Origin: Psychrobacter sp. FME6
GTDB taxonomy: Bacteria; Pseudomonadota; Gammaproteobacteria; Pseudomonadales; Moraxellaceae
Length of the DNA: 64,000 bases
NCBI RefSeq assembly: GCF_014861365.1
Contig: NZ_RRYW01000005.1
Span: forward strand, 1 to 64,000
Reading direction: 5' to 3'
Positions within the stretch are counted from its first letter, which is position 1; each line of letters opens with the position of its first letter. The position numbers and the translations under genes are program-made. Shown piece by piece: positions 2,241-5,968 of this stretch. The notes beneath the pieces were generated by a model, which saw only the letters and a program-made list of their open reading frames with translations, ran no database searches and had not been told where the DNA came from.

Positions 2241-3866
2241 ATGAGTATTATTGAGCAGTTGGAACAAACCGTAACCCCCGCTCTATTAGGCGACCATGAT
2301 AACCAAGGCAGCAGTGATAACCAAGGTAGCGTGGCCTATATTAGCTTACTTGAGCAGTTTTATGCCATTTTGGCAGCACGTCTGGCATTGCCACAGATTT
2401 ACTCACAGTTAATTCGCGCTGAGCAAGTGATGGCAGCTGATATGGTCACAGAACGTCCATTGTTTGAACAACTATGGCACGACCCTAGGATGCAGCAGGT
2501 TATTGTTCAAGAGCTGTCCGCCACCCATCATATAGATGAGGTTAAGACCGCGCAGTTACTCATTAATGCCGCTCCATTGGCTTATCGTGAGCTCAAAATA
2601 TTGGCCGATGGACAGTTTCTACCCGCATTTTTGCAAGCAGAACAATCTGCGCTGCGTAGCTATTTACCTATATGGTCGGCTCCCGTTATCACAGCGACTC
2701 AAAGCCTTGGTGAAGACACCAACTCAAATAATGTAGTGAATGCTGGTACTGCCACAAGGAATGATCGTGCGCTAGATAAAGCTCAAGATTCTGATGGAAG
2801 TACAAGCGCGATAGTGGCGGCGCCCACTACCTCATCGACGGTAGCTGATATAAACAACACTGATGAAAGTACAGGTATAGAGAGTACGGGTATAGAAAGT
2901 ACTGATGCCATCCATGCCAATCCAGCTGCGCATCATTTGGCAGAAAACGACAACATGAAGCGAGTCGAAGTGCGCACTCGTAATCAACGTAACGACCTAC
3001 TAATACGAGTGTTTTTGTTAATAGGAGCGGTGGCAGCGATTGGGTTGGCTGTTTGGGCTTTATTGATAAAGCCTAGTAATACTGTGCCAGTGGAACCTGT
3101 TGTGACAGCGCCTGTGGTCGTACCACCTGCGCCAGCAGAGCAGACTATGACCCCAGTCGAGCTCATCATTGGCATGGACGATAGCGGTAATCTCTATACC
3201 TGTAGTGCCACTGTGGGTGATGAAGCATTACAAAGCACCTTACAAAATGCATTAAATACTAGCTTTGGTGAGCAGGCGAGCATTTGCACATTGGCGGTAC
3301 AAACAGACACTGCAACCAGTATTGCTAACATTTCTGTAGAGAAGTTACCCAACATCTTGACCATGCTTAGGTCAACGCCGTTTGCACGCTTACAGTTGCA
3401 AAACGACCGCCTTACGTTAGAGGCACCAGATAGTATGTTGTTGCAGCGATTGGTTACGGATATAGGTGCTTTGGCACCAGCAATGACAATCGATAGTACG
3501 GCACCACTACCATTGCCCGAAAACAATGATGTCAATGCGATGAATGAGGAAGATAATCAGTTTGAAAATGAGGGTGCGGGCACAAATAACCAGTATGGTA
3601 ATGATGACAATGGGGCTGGAGAGTATCAGGCATCAGATGATGATACAGGTGATAACGTGATACCTGCTCCTGCTCCAAATAACAATGATGTTAATAATAC
3701 TAACAATGCTGCTGATAGTATTCCTCGTAACGTACCGAGCAATATACAAAGAAATCCACCGAGCAATAACCGACCGACCAGACCACCAGGTCCTTTTTCG
3801 CCAGAGGAAGTCGATGAGATGGCCAGTACAGTCATCGTCGCTGAGCCTGCACAGGTAAGGCAATAA
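2241..3866 (+). CDS. Membrane-anchored protein, paralog of the next gene but lacking an OmpA domain
   Basis: This 541-residue protein shares its architecture with the following gene. It has an N-terminal helical domain containing LLEQFYAILAARLA, a variable Ser/Thr/Asp linker (about 155-235), a single transmembrane segment at about 253-276 after a basic stretch, then an outside domain with Cys321 and Cys349. The two cysteines are 28 residues apart, exactly as in the paralog. After about residue 410 it diverges into an Asn/Asp/Pro-rich tail and has no peptidoglycan-binding domain. I do not recognise the N-terminal domain with certainty; a distant DUF937-type helical domain is possible. N-in/C-out topology is inferred. 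Function unknown. Confidence 0.7.
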   Translation: MSIIEQLEQTVTPALLGDHDNQGSSDNQGSVAYISLLEQFYAILAARLALPQIYSQLIRAEQVMAADMVTERPLFEQLWHDPRMQQVIVQELSATHHIDEVKTAQLLINAAPLAYRELKILADGQFLPAFLQAEQSALRSYLPIWSAPVITATQSLGEDTNSNNVVNAGTATRNDRALDKAQDSDGSTSAIVAAPTTSSTVADINNTDESTGIESTGIESTDAIHANPAAHHLAENDNMKRVEVRTRNQRNDLLIRVFLLIGAVAAIGLAVWALLIKPSNTVPVEPVVTAPVVVPPAPAEQTMTPVELIIGMDDSGNLYTCSATVGDEALQSTLQNALNTSFGEQASICTLAVQTDTATSIANISVEKLPNILTMLRSTPFARLQLQNDRLTLEAPDSMLLQRLVTDIGALAPAMTIDSTAPLPLPENNDVNAMNEEDNQFENEGAGTNNQYGNDDNGAGEYQASDDDTGDNVIPAPAPNNNDVNNTNNAADSIPRNVPSNIQRNPPSNNRPTRPPGPFSPEEVDEMASTVIVAEPAQVRQ

Positions 3867-4270
3867 ATGATTCGATCATAAAGAATATTTGGCGTATCGG
3901 TTTTAAAGTGAATCAACTATGTTGCTGTATTACAAGGCAAAGGACTTGATAAAGTCTCGGTCATAATCACGTATTGGCATGTTGATAATTTATATTTTAT
4001 TGTATACATGGTTACGTGTGACAACTGAAACATTACCTAACGTAGCATTTGCACAACAACGTGTTGATTGTTAATACTCGCTTAATACTTTTATAATGAT
4101 AAAAATTGAATATAGCTCGGACGATGGTTTTTTCAACCATGGTCGTGGCTTTCAGCTCATATACTTTAATACCACATACTTTCATACCACCTAAAGGTTT
4201 CATTGAGTCAATTTTTAAGCATTCTAATTATACAAATAAGCCAAGTAAGCATTGATAGGAGAATTATATT
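3867..4270. other. Intergenic region between the two paralogs
   Basis: The 404-bp gap holds a solitary repeat end at 3893-3920 (see that entry) and otherwise AT-rich DNA. A short hairpin, GACGATGGTT paired with AACCATGGTC around 4120-4145, may be structural. No gene was recognised. The gap is long enough for the second paralog to have its own promoter. Confidence 0.4.
3893..3920 (+). repeat. Solo end of the MITE-like repeat
   Basis: The 28 bases read CGTATCGGTTTTAAAGTG followed by AATCAACTAT and match the right end of the complete copy at 31691-31853 base for base. No core or left end is seen nearby, so this is a remnant. Confidence 0.6.
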
Positions 4271-5890
4271 ATGGATATTATCAGTCATTTGACGCGCACA
4301 GTCAGCCCAGCAGTACTAGAAGATGACCGTAGCCCAGCTAAGAAAAATCTACTTGAACAGTTTTATGCTATTTTTGCCGCCCGTCTGGCAGACAATGATA
4401 CTTACGACCGCTTTGCCAATGAGAATATCGCCCGTGACGACCAAGGGTTCTATGATCGCGTGTGGACAGATGGCTCGCACCGTGACCAAATCGCGCGTGA
4501 GTTGGCTGGCAAGCATAATGTTGATGTAACAGCCGCTCGTGGTTTGATTGCTATGGCAGCACCGCTGGCTTTTCACGAAATTAAAAGTTTGGCTGGTACC
4601 ACACCTGTCCCACAGTTTTTGAGTGATAATCTTGCAAATTATCAACATCATATTCCTGCATGGGCAAGTGCCGTTTTGCCCGCCGGGATTTTGGCTACCA
4701 CGCCTGCTGCTGGAGCGCGTATTTCTGATACGGTAAGTACGGCACCATTGCAACATGAAGAAGAGCCGCAAGGCAGCTTTATGAAGGCGCTGTTACCCAT
4801 CATTGGCTTGATTATTTTAGGGGCCTTGGCTTGGGCGTTACTGCGTGGTTGCCAAGAAACTCCTGAGCCTGTCGCCACACCAGCTGCTACGACGCAACAA
4901 GCGGCAGATGACGATGGACAAACAGCGGTTGCTGCTGATGTTGAGCCTGCGTCATTGCGTATTGCCACTGGTGAAAACAGTGAACTGTACGCTTGCCGCA
5001 TGAATGTTGGTGATGAGACCTTACAGACCAATGTGATGGATGCGTTAACTGGCGTCTTTGGTGATGAAACCAGTAAATGCCGCGCCGATGTTGATGACCA
5101 TTTTGCAATAGATATGCCAGCGGCTGCCCAGCTTGCCACTATACTGCCTATCGTCAAAAATGTACCAAACGCCAGCATGGTTATCAAAGGTGATAATATT
5201 ATTGTTAACGCACCCGATGCTGCAACATTAGATAAGTTGGTCGATGACTTACAAGCCGCTGCCCCAGCGATGACGGTAAAAGCCGAAGGTCCGTTGGATG
5301 AGCAAAGCGAGATCGATAATAGCTTAACAGCATCGCAAGCAGCTATGGATGATCTTGGTGACAATCCAGATCCTCGTGATGTTGCGCGCGCTTTAAGTTT
5401 ACAAGTCGTTAACTTTGAAGTAGACAAAGCAGTGATTCCAGATGCTAACAAGCCATTGTTAGACAATGCTGTGGCGCTTATGGAACAAGTGCCTAACATG
5501 AAATTGATGATTATTGGTCACACTGACAAAACGGCTGACGCGGATTATAATATGAAGCTATCGCAAGAGCGTGCCGAATCTATGAAGGAGTATTTGGTCG
5601 CCCAAGGCGCCGACCCAAGCAAACTTATGACTAAAGGCATGGGCGAGACAGATCCTATCGCTGATAACTCAACCGAACAGGGACGCTTTCGTAACCGCCG
5701 CATTGAGTTCATGGTAAATGATGAAACAGTCGATGCCAATGCTAGTGCTGATGCTGATGTTAATGACGGTATGGCTATTACTAACGATGCGCTTGATCCT
5801 GATTTAAACCCTTTAGACAGTAACAACGATGATTTATTGCCAGATGGTGATGACGCAACTCAAGGTACCGCCATTGACCCAACAAATTAA
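4271..5890 (+). CDS. OmpA-family peptidoglycan-binding protein with N-terminal helical domain and single membrane anchor
   Basis: This 539-residue protein has four parts. An N-terminal helical domain (about 1-130, with LLEQFYAIFAARLA) is followed by a linker and a transmembrane helix at about 172-192. A small domain at about 228-338 carries Cys242 and Cys270 and may be BON-like. An OmpA C-terminal domain spans about 378-483, with NFEVDKA, GHTD (416-419) and the RFRNRRIEF block that binds peptidoglycan stem peptide. An acidic tail ends it. It probably links the inner membrane to the cell wall, with the first 170 residues cytoplasmic. AGGAG precedes the ATG by nine bases. A rho-independent terminator follows at 5934-5968. 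Confidence 0.82.
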   Translation: MDIISHLTRTVSPAVLEDDRSPAKKNLLEQFYAIFAARLADNDTYDRFANENIARDDQGFYDRVWTDGSHRDQIARELAGKHNVDVTAARGLIAMAAPLAFHEIKSLAGTTPVPQFLSDNLANYQHHIPAWASAVLPAGILATTPAAGARISDTVSTAPLQHEEEPQGSFMKALLPIIGLIILGALAWALLRGCQETPEPVATPAATTQQAADDDGQTAVAADVEPASLRIATGENSELYACRMNVGDETLQTNVMDALTGVFGDETSKCRADVDDHFAIDMPAAAQLATILPIVKNVPNASMVIKGDNIIVNAPDAATLDKLVDDLQAAAPAMTVKAEGPLDEQSEIDNSLTASQAAMDDLGDNPDPRDVARALSLQVVNFEVDKAVIPDANKPLLDNAVALMEQVPNMKLMIIGHTDKTADADYNMKLSQERAESMKEYLVAQGADPSKLMTKGMGETDPIADNSTEQGRFRNRRIEFMVNDETVDANASADADVNDGMAITNDALDPDLNPLDSNNDDLLPDGDDATQGTAIDPTN

Positions 5891-5933: not shown

Positions 5934-5968
5934 AAAAAACCGCATCTTATAAAAGGTGCGGTTTTTTT
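5934..5968 (+). terminator. Rho-independent terminator after the OmpA-family gene
   Basis: The inverted repeat AAACCGCA(T)CTT / AAGGTGCGGTTT is followed by a run of seven T, 45 bp after the stop codon. Confidence 0.85.

Follow-up and report, generated by a model that had tools for sequence, protein, structure and literature searches.

Tandem membrane-anchored paralogs of Psychrobacter, only one of which carries a predicted wall-binding OmpA domain

Why does Psychrobacter sp. FME6 carry two related membrane-anchored proteins side by side, of which only one has a domain for holding the cell wall? We addressed this question for positions 2241-5890 of contig NZ_RRYW01000005.1 (assembly GCF_014861365.1), which lie in the window, that is, the whole stretch of 64,000 nucleotides (positions 1 to 64,000, forward strand). 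The locus holds two open reading frames (ORFs), ORF1 and ORF2. We found that their products are true paralogs, with similarity far above chance, and that ORF2 has an OmpA domain which ORF1 does not have. We put a rough probability of 0.46, a little below even, on the reading that both proteins belong to one envelope structure, in which they act through the inside and outside domains that they share. The features of the locus are as follows (coordinates, strand, feature, and basis in brackets; pLDDT, predicted local distance difference test).

2241..3866, + strand: ORF1 (P1), 541 residues, the paralog without OmpA (ORF list)
2241..2696, + strand: ORF1 residues 1-152, N-terminal helical domain, predicted cytoplasmic, putative remote relative of DUF937 (AlphaFold, hhalign)
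2988..3065, + strand: ORF1 residues 250-275, predicted membrane helix (AlphaFold helix; Lys/Arg number 4 within the preceding 15 residues and 1 after the helix)
3144..3518, + strand: ORF1 residues 302-426, outside domain with Cys321 and Cys349, predicted Rv0899 B (BON-like) fold (pLDDT 94-98 over residues 301-420, VIA, Foldseek)
3519..3788, + strand: ORF1 residues 427-516, Asn/Pro-rich disordered linker (37% Asn+Pro; pLDDT mostly below 50)
3789..3863, + strand: ORF1 residues 517-541, conserved C-terminal peptide (conservation, tail profile)
4271..5890, + strand: ORF2 (P2), 539 residues, the OmpA-bearing paralog (ORF list, Pfam)
4271..4693, + strand: ORF2 residues 1-141, N-terminal helical domain, predicted cytoplasmic, putative remote relative of DUF937 (pLDDT 90-98, hhalign)
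4793..4846, + strand: ORF2 residues 175-192, predicted membrane helix (AlphaFold helix)
4940..5305, + strand: ORF2 residues 224-345, predicted outside BON-like domain with Cys242 and Cys270 (homology to the ORF1 domain)
5414..5698, + strand: ORF2 residues 382-476, OmpA domain (PF00691) with Asp419 and Arg434 (Pfam, 78 bits against a cut-off of 27.2)
5795..5887, + strand: ORF2 residues 509-539, acidic Asp/Asn/Pro C-terminal tail (sequence)

The homology between the two proteins consists of two separate blocks, with little that can be aligned between or after them. In pairwise alignments, the N-terminal domains matched at 35% over 152 residues (E 4e-22) and the outside domains at 33% over 159 residues (E 7e-20). 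AlphaFold models, built from 47 (ORF1) and 58 (ORF2) aligned sequences, gave both proteins an all-helical N-terminal domain with block pLDDT mostly above 90, followed by a disordered segment and a single membrane helix; beyond the helix, a linker leads to a compact outside domain of alpha/beta type, with the same order of strands and helices in ORF1 and ORF2. The N-terminal blocks of ORF1 ranged from 82 to 98, save 62 at residues 21-30. Models and alignments thus agree with a preliminary description of this locus, made from the letters alone, which had assigned to both proteins a helical N-terminal domain, one membrane segment and an outside domain containing two cysteines at a spacing of 28 residues; the pairs are 321/349 in ORF1 and 242/270 in ORF2. 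From these predicted models we infer the domain folds, the topology and a probable disulphide. The Lys/Arg residues before the ORF1 helix, together with an OmpA domain that is bound to face the wall, suggest that both proteins are placed N-in, C-out; at the ORF2 helix the bias is slight (1 before, 0 after, within 15 residues).

The OmpA domain is confined to ORF2, as the preliminary description had stated. ORF1 gave no Pfam OmpA match up to E 10, and its residues after 426 are mostly disordered in the model. Among NCBIfam models, OmpA-type matches were found in ORF2 only. The one NCBIfam row for ORF1, TafF, was rejected; it scored 14 bits where the cut-off is 420 (E 0.018) and covers part of the outside domain together with the low-complexity tail. 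The structure comparison of ORF2 was dominated by OmpA domains, with Z up to 13.6. According to the available text of one report, D271 and R286 of A. baumannii OmpA are critical for diaminopimelate binding (PMC6572160), and Asp419 and Arg434 of ORF2 have the same spacing of 15.

To follow these residues among relatives, we used 100 Psychrobacter genomes, a sample of 249 Moraxellaceae genomes from 16 genera (both read by per-genome rows) and a set of named loci, the best 80 of 92 relatives with the ORF2 family (79 Psychrobacter and one Moraxella caprae, L200). Here L numbers denote loci, G numbers genomes and g numbers genera. The Asp and Arg are both present in 56/56 ORF2-type members of our tree (32 ORF2, 12 Moraxella first copies and 12 homologues from other genera), and the wall-binding motif occurs in 78/78 ORF2-type proteins of the named loci. 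ORF2 has a competent wall-binding domain, judging from its intact wall-binding residues, and is predicted to bind the wall. Contrary to the preliminary description, it does not end there: about 60 more residues, mostly disordered and acidic, follow the OmpA domain.

The acidic tail of ORF2 is repeat-like (DPDLNPLDSNNDDLLPD...) and is present twice in L190. By eye, we take it to resemble calcium-binding repeats. The strict tail pattern was found in 52/65 loci with ORF1 and in 4/12 loci without it; the 13 misses show variants by eye. We did not retain this tail as the partner of ORF1, since it is absent in the ORF1-bearing locus L076 and the association is confounded by ancestry.

What do the shared domains resemble? 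In its model, the outside domain of ORF1 adopts the same fold as the B domain of mycobacterial Rv0899/ArfA, which is described as BON-like in the available text of PMC6151718. The three Rv0899 structures led the VIA comparison (Z 10.4 for 2l26, 9.9 for 2kgs and 9.0 for 2ksm, with the next chain at 4.9) and the Foldseek search (E 1.9e-5 for 2kgs, the best, then 6.8e-5 and 1.4e-4, with the next at 0.026). The outside domain of ORF2 is taken to have the same fold because it is a homologue of that of ORF1. Sequence models miss this likeness: the Pfam BON models (PF04972 and PF21923) matched neither ORF1 nor ORF2, BON_like matched 1/39 family members (E 0.044), a profile of 36 outside domains found no Rv0899 chain in PDB up to E 10, and PDB sequence searches with the domain gave nothing convincing. 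Both cysteines are kept in 85/86 members of the tree set and the single exception lacks both, the pattern that a disulphide would produce, so that a Cys321-Cys349 bond in ORF1 and a Cys242-Cys270 bond in ORF2 are probable. The outside-domain profile matched 189/249 Moraxellaceae genomes in 8/16 genera. It also matched 13/293 Pseudomonadales genomes; 10 of them are Moraxellaceae, with E no higher than 1e-25, and the 3 others gave E 0.002-0.008.

Some homologues carry this domain twice. L096:3669-5741 encodes an ORF2 homologue with two tandem BON-like domains; L096 is judged, from its identical ORF1, to come from the same genome as L174, P. submarinus KMM 225. Two BON-like matches per genome were observed in G161 and G177 (genus g10) and in G106 (genus g8). 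The two matches may lie in one protein, with open frames of 703 residues in G161 and 733 in G177, or in two genes.

The preliminary description had left the family of the N-terminal domain to be determined. The Pfam DUF937 model (PF06078) gave no match in ORF1 or ORF2 up to E 10 and matched 2/39 family members, with a best E of 0.031. A profile of 37 N-terminal domains was then compared in hhalign with 21 DUF937 domains drawn from genomes of the same order and class. This comparison scored 86.8%, with P 4.3e-6 over 61 columns. P ranged from 0.0034 to 0.79 across 27 decoys, which comprised 6 unrelated alignments and the DUF937 alignment itself after reversal (1) or column shuffling (20). Since the domain fails the Pfam model yet shows profile-profile similarity, we call it DUF937-like rather than a member, and consider it a putative remote relative. 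PDB sequence and profile searches with the N-terminal domain yielded nothing convincing; the best row, the 'CAP REPEAT' structure 8vd6 (E 0.0011), was rejected as a repeat protein with several weak stretches. The structure comparison of ORF1 gave no close match to this domain (best 4.9), which was barely tested there. In the partly available texts that our literature searches returned, we found no known function for DUF937.

A related layout was observed in the gammaproteobacterial locus L260. Its open frame of 607 residues matches DUF937 at 53.8 bits, above the Pfam cut-off, and its translation shows by eye a hydrophobic stretch and then an OmpA-like end in one protein. It has in common with ORF2 the N-terminal DUF937-type domain, the hydrophobic stretch and the OmpA-like end. 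It differs in its Ala/Thr-rich linker and in having no BON-like domain apparent by eye, and the Moraxellaceae N-terminal domain differs in being too diverged for the Pfam model. The L260 layout suggests that the architecture without the BON-like domain is wider than Moraxellaceae. At L120:3361-4284 (genus g15), a homologue of just 307 residues starts right before the membrane helix, so that its cytoplasmic domain is either missing or in another frame.

In place of the OmpA domain, ORF1 ends in a tail that had been described as Asn/Pro-rich. Its composition bears this out, with 37% Asn+Pro in residues 427-516 against 11% in residues 1-426, but the tail is not merely low complexity, because its terminal peptide is conserved. 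Among 67 ORF1 sequences, the mean fraction of the most common residue was 0.77 over the last 20 residues (521-540) and 0.41 in the linker (481-500), and AlphaFold placed a short helix at residues 521-528. ORF1 thus terminates in a conserved peptide carried by a variable, leash-like linker. A tail profile found 13 ORF1 among the fetched loci; 8 of these tails were in its training set, and the five outside it (L076, L077, L079, L095, L100) gave E 1e-15 to 5e-9. In the 249-genome sample, the peptide was found in 78/91 Psychrobacter, which is 78/81 of those with at least two BON-like domains, and gave no match in the other 15 genera. Outside ORF1, the profile gave only E 0.4 or worse in 19 relative genomes. 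The peptide appears to be specific to Psychrobacter, as far as searched. Of the 13 Psychrobacter without a tail match, 10 have a single BON-like domain, which indicates that ORF1 is absent or decayed, and 3 (G066, G083, G213) have two, which suggests that the ORF1 tail has diverged there.

How widely is the pair kept? ORF1 is present in 86/100 Psychrobacter, with a few copies frameshifted, and is therefore not absent or decayed in most relatives within this genus. The part of ORF2 outside OmpA matched in 100/100 Psychrobacter (with an interrupted frame in G058, G076 and G094) and in 196/249 family genomes from 9/16 genera. Among the 80 named loci, ORF1 lies directly upstream of ORF2 in 67 (frameshifted in L125 and L137), 11 have no ORF1 (including the Moraxella locus L200), one has a remnant and one, L123, is a contig beginning at ORF2. 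With 67/79 readable loci showing the two genes side by side, the paired retention proposed earlier holds for Psychrobacter; it is not general in Moraxellaceae. On a tree of nagZ and Prc from 71 loci, the absences of ORF1 need 2 changes (4/12 ORF1-less loci lie outside this tree). One change falls on a deep clade that includes P. phenylpyruvicus and P. lutiphocae, the other on the recent pair of TAE2020 and ACAM534. In Psychrobacter sp. TAE2020 (L173:4545-5085), a broken ORF1 remnant stands upstream of an intact ORF2.

ORF1 is under purifying selection. The ratio of nonsynonymous to synonymous substitution rates (dN/dS) was 0.12-0.29 for ORF1 and 0.03-0.13 for ORF2 in 12/12 hand-chosen close pairs; the values of ORF1 are above those of ORF2 yet low, indicating that ORF1 is constrained, less so than ORF2.

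A second paralog also exists in Moraxella, which we recognise in genus g10 because the M. caprae protein of L200 is 92% identical to the g10 member L225. It was found in 9/22 genomes of this genus, with its OmpA region retained. In the eight copies aligned, the Gly of the GHTD motif is replaced in 8/8, the Arg in 7/8 (Gln in 6, Phe in 1) and the Asp in 3/8, and this Gly, like the Arg, is retained in 56/56 ORF2-type copies; the second copy of G173 was left out of alignment and tree, and L208 and L209 align poorly and have long branches. Wall binding is thus probably deficient in the Moraxella second copy as well, by a route other than the OmpA deletion of ORF1. In G122, G179 and G185 this copy directly precedes the first one in the same orientation, which is also the order of ORF1 and ORF2. 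The two are 12 kb apart in G132; G108 and G173 carry the second copy elsewhere, and in G189 it is on a different contig. By eye, its tail resembled the ORF1 peptide (PKEVLELSQTVISSED and PEEVDEMASTVIVAEP). The ORF1 tail profile misses it, and a profile-profile comparison of the two tails reached only P 0.024 over 15 columns, so that a shared peptide is not claimed.

The best tree, of 86 hand-picked rows (22 ORF1 and 32 ORF2; from Moraxella, 12 first and 8 second copies; and 12 of the 15 homologues from other genera), joined ORF1 with the Moraxella second copy (support 97/83) and ORF2 with the first copy (95/89). We favour, without regarding it as proven, a single tandem duplication before the Psychrobacter/Moraxella split, followed by ORF1 loss in the deep Psychrobacter clade. 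This history is not secure: ORF1 and the Moraxella second copies are long branches, and the approximately unbiased (AU) test did not reject a clade uniting ORF1 and ORF2 (p 0.245), a clade uniting the two Moraxella copies (p 0.076) or an origin of ORF1 from within the ORF2s of species that bear ORF1 (p 0.070). Under either duplication history, both genera come to have one type that binds the wall and one that is deficient in wall binding. In the listed genomes of genus g7, three in number, no BON-like match was seen, and its proteins were excluded from the tree; the ORF2 homologue there (L101-L105) has about 400 residues and a shorter OmpA-like end.

How might the two proteins work? We propose that ORF2 would be an inner-membrane anchor of peptidoglycan, in which a cytoplasmic DUF937-like domain is joined through the helix and the BON-like domain to a wall-holding OmpA domain. 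ORF1 would be its duplicate, probably formed by tandem duplication before the two genera split, and would have given up wall binding, through deletion of OmpA in Psychrobacter and through replacement of the conserved binding residues in the Moraxella counterpart. The cytoplasmic domain, helix and BON-like domain would have been kept, in Psychrobacter together with the conserved peptide on its flexible linker. ORF2 would then hold the wall at a fixed distance, the free tip of ORF1 may contact something else, and the cytoplasmic domains may report or stabilise the spacing. An envelope sensor, as suggested earlier, would be a reasonable though putative reading. A more specific version is speculative and in our view improbable: if the wall-fixed and wall-free arms form one complex, they could be a caliper for the inner-membrane-to-wall spacing or for wall growth, with the ORF1 peptide as probe tip and a signal passed to the DUF937-like domains, a pair reached by OmpA deletion in Psychrobacter and by site mutation in Moraxella. 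If so, this would be the first function for DUF937.

Several findings weigh against a shared structure. ORF1 is absent or decayed in 14/100 Psychrobacter (all 14 regions were read), and one BON-like domain each, indicating one copy, was found in the matching genomes listed from g9, g11, g14, g15 and g16. The pair is thus not always adjacent in Moraxellaceae, a point that the preliminary description had put forward for checking, and ORF2-type proteins standing alone in these genomes suggest that ORF1 is dispensable for the basic role of ORF2. In the Moraxella genomes G164 and G181 (the latter 88% complete), only the second type was found, with one BON-like domain per genome and no first copy listed, so that the wall-binding-deficient type may do without a tethered partner, which argues against an obligate partnership there. 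A gap of 261-812 nucleotides separates ORF1 from ORF2 in 63 loci and a promoter-like site precedes ORF2 (the region has 18 sites of this kind against 10.0 expected), so that co-transcription is not assured. Finally, mirror-tree comparison of ORF1 and ORF2 domains gave partial correlations of -0.17 to 0.34, below the 0.53-0.55 of the ORF1 and nagZ control, and hence no ORF1/ORF2 signal beyond shared ancestry.

The missing coevolution signal fits an alternative that we regard as nearly as likely as the shared structure, in which ORF1 has been re-targeted and works independently of its sibling, its tail binding another envelope partner with no link to ORF2, and adjacency is a relic of tandem duplication. 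The evolutionary rate of ORF1 is about 2-3 times that of ORF2 (mean distances over 53 species of 0.46 against 0.16 for the N-terminal domain and 0.42 against 0.23 for the outside domain), ORF1 has a C-terminal peptide of its own, and the Moraxella second copy lies elsewhere or 12 kb off in 3/9 genomes and is the sole copy found in 2/9. Such independence has to be set against the retention of ORF1 beside ORF2 with its inside and outside domains preserved, and ORF1 was never found without an ORF2 match in the 100 Psychrobacter genomes (the ORF2 frame is interrupted in three). Could ORF1 instead be an eroding duplicate with little function, for which OmpA loss was the first step of decay? The absence of OmpA, the remnant in TAE2020, and the missing gene in its relative ACAM534 and in the deep clade would agree with this, but the low dN/dS in all 12 pairs, an ORF of more than 450 residues in 66/67 ORF1-bearing named loci and the conserved terminal peptide make decay unlikely as a general account, and we give it very little weight. 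Scarcely any weight goes to the idea, formerly put forward for OmpATb/Rv0899, of an oligomeric channel or permeability device, which ORF2 would form with ORF1 as a subunit. The B-domain fold is common to Rv0899 and ORF1, and the available text of PMC6151718 reports Rv0899 as pore-forming, but later titles cited there call it monomeric, membrane-anchoring and peptidoglycan-recognising, and our models show a single membrane helix, a predicted cytoplasmic domain and no barrel.

Among known systems, mycobacterial Rv0899/ArfA/OmpATb is close to ORF2 in layout; in the available text of PMC6151718 it has an N-terminal membrane helix, a BON-like B domain and an OmpA C domain, and a role in acid adaptation and in ammonia release. 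The same order of helix, B domain and OmpA is found in ORF2 only, since ORF1 has no OmpA. The Moraxellaceae proteins differ in the DUF937-like domain of about 140 residues before the helix and in the near-invariant cysteine pair of the BON-like domain, and the two outside domains show no relation by sequence. A BON-type fold followed by OmpA is also seen in the BON+BON+OmpA proteins listed as cluster 7 in Table 1 of the DolP paper, whose available text places them mostly in alpha- and betaproteobacteria and actinobacteria and derives them from a HMMER search with BON models (PMC7806268); the Moraxellaceae domain, unlike these, escapes the Pfam BON models.

Other relatives share less. The OmpA domain with its Asp/Arg pair is common to ORF2 and to the peptidoglycan anchors of the Pal/YiaD/OprF type. 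The latter are outer-membrane lipoproteins or barrels, whereas ORF2 is predicted to lie in the inner membrane with a cytoplasmic domain. In MotB/PomB and TssL-type proteins, one inner-membrane helix is joined to a periplasmic OmpA domain, as predicted for ORF2; these were weaker matches, and the N-terminal and BON-like domains of ORF2 are unrelated to them. A 2011 paper reportedly deals with the Rv0899 family in nitrogen-fixing bacteria. Our literature searches, from whose coverage subscription journals mostly fall outside, found no description of the ORF1/ORF2 gene pair. New here are the DUF937 likeness of the N-terminal domain, the Rv0899 B fold predicted for the outside domain and the conserved ORF1 tail peptide.

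These results would add to several Moraxellaceae genera an inner-membrane, cytoplasm-linked version of the Rv0899/ArfA architecture that sequence models had missed. The two proteins may also serve as a natural experiment on the loss of wall binding in one of two sister proteins: because one sister has lost it, the roles of wall binding, the BON-like domain and the DUF937-like domain should be separable by simple gene removals. According to the available text of the BonA paper, A. baumannii has one BON-family protein (PMC8406262). The cryptic BON-type domain was matched in many genomes of genus g15, which we guess to be Acinetobacter.

The neighbourhood of the pair is partly conserved. Upstream, on the opposite strand, lies a rhomboid protease gene (PF01694, with the GxSG motif; 1244-1852, - strand), which was found at 77/79 Psychrobacter, 5/5 g7, 7/13 Moraxella and 0/15 other loci; one of the six Moraxella loci without it, L200, has less than 2 kb upstream. 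A single-helix protein beside a rhomboid intramembrane protease could be its candidate substrate. Downstream, a GH3 gene (nagZ-like) occurs in 72/80 and a tail-specific protease gene (Prc-like) in 69/80 named loci, the names nagZ and prc being assigned from protein families. No motor or secretion gene is among the four flanking genes labelled. The following site was found after ORF2.

5934..5967, + strand: candidate intrinsic terminator (15 pairs, T-run)

The region holds 5 terminator-like sites, with 4.0 expected in shuffles. At L119, the sole g15 locus read, the translations of the flanking genes resemble those of pyrB and pyrC.

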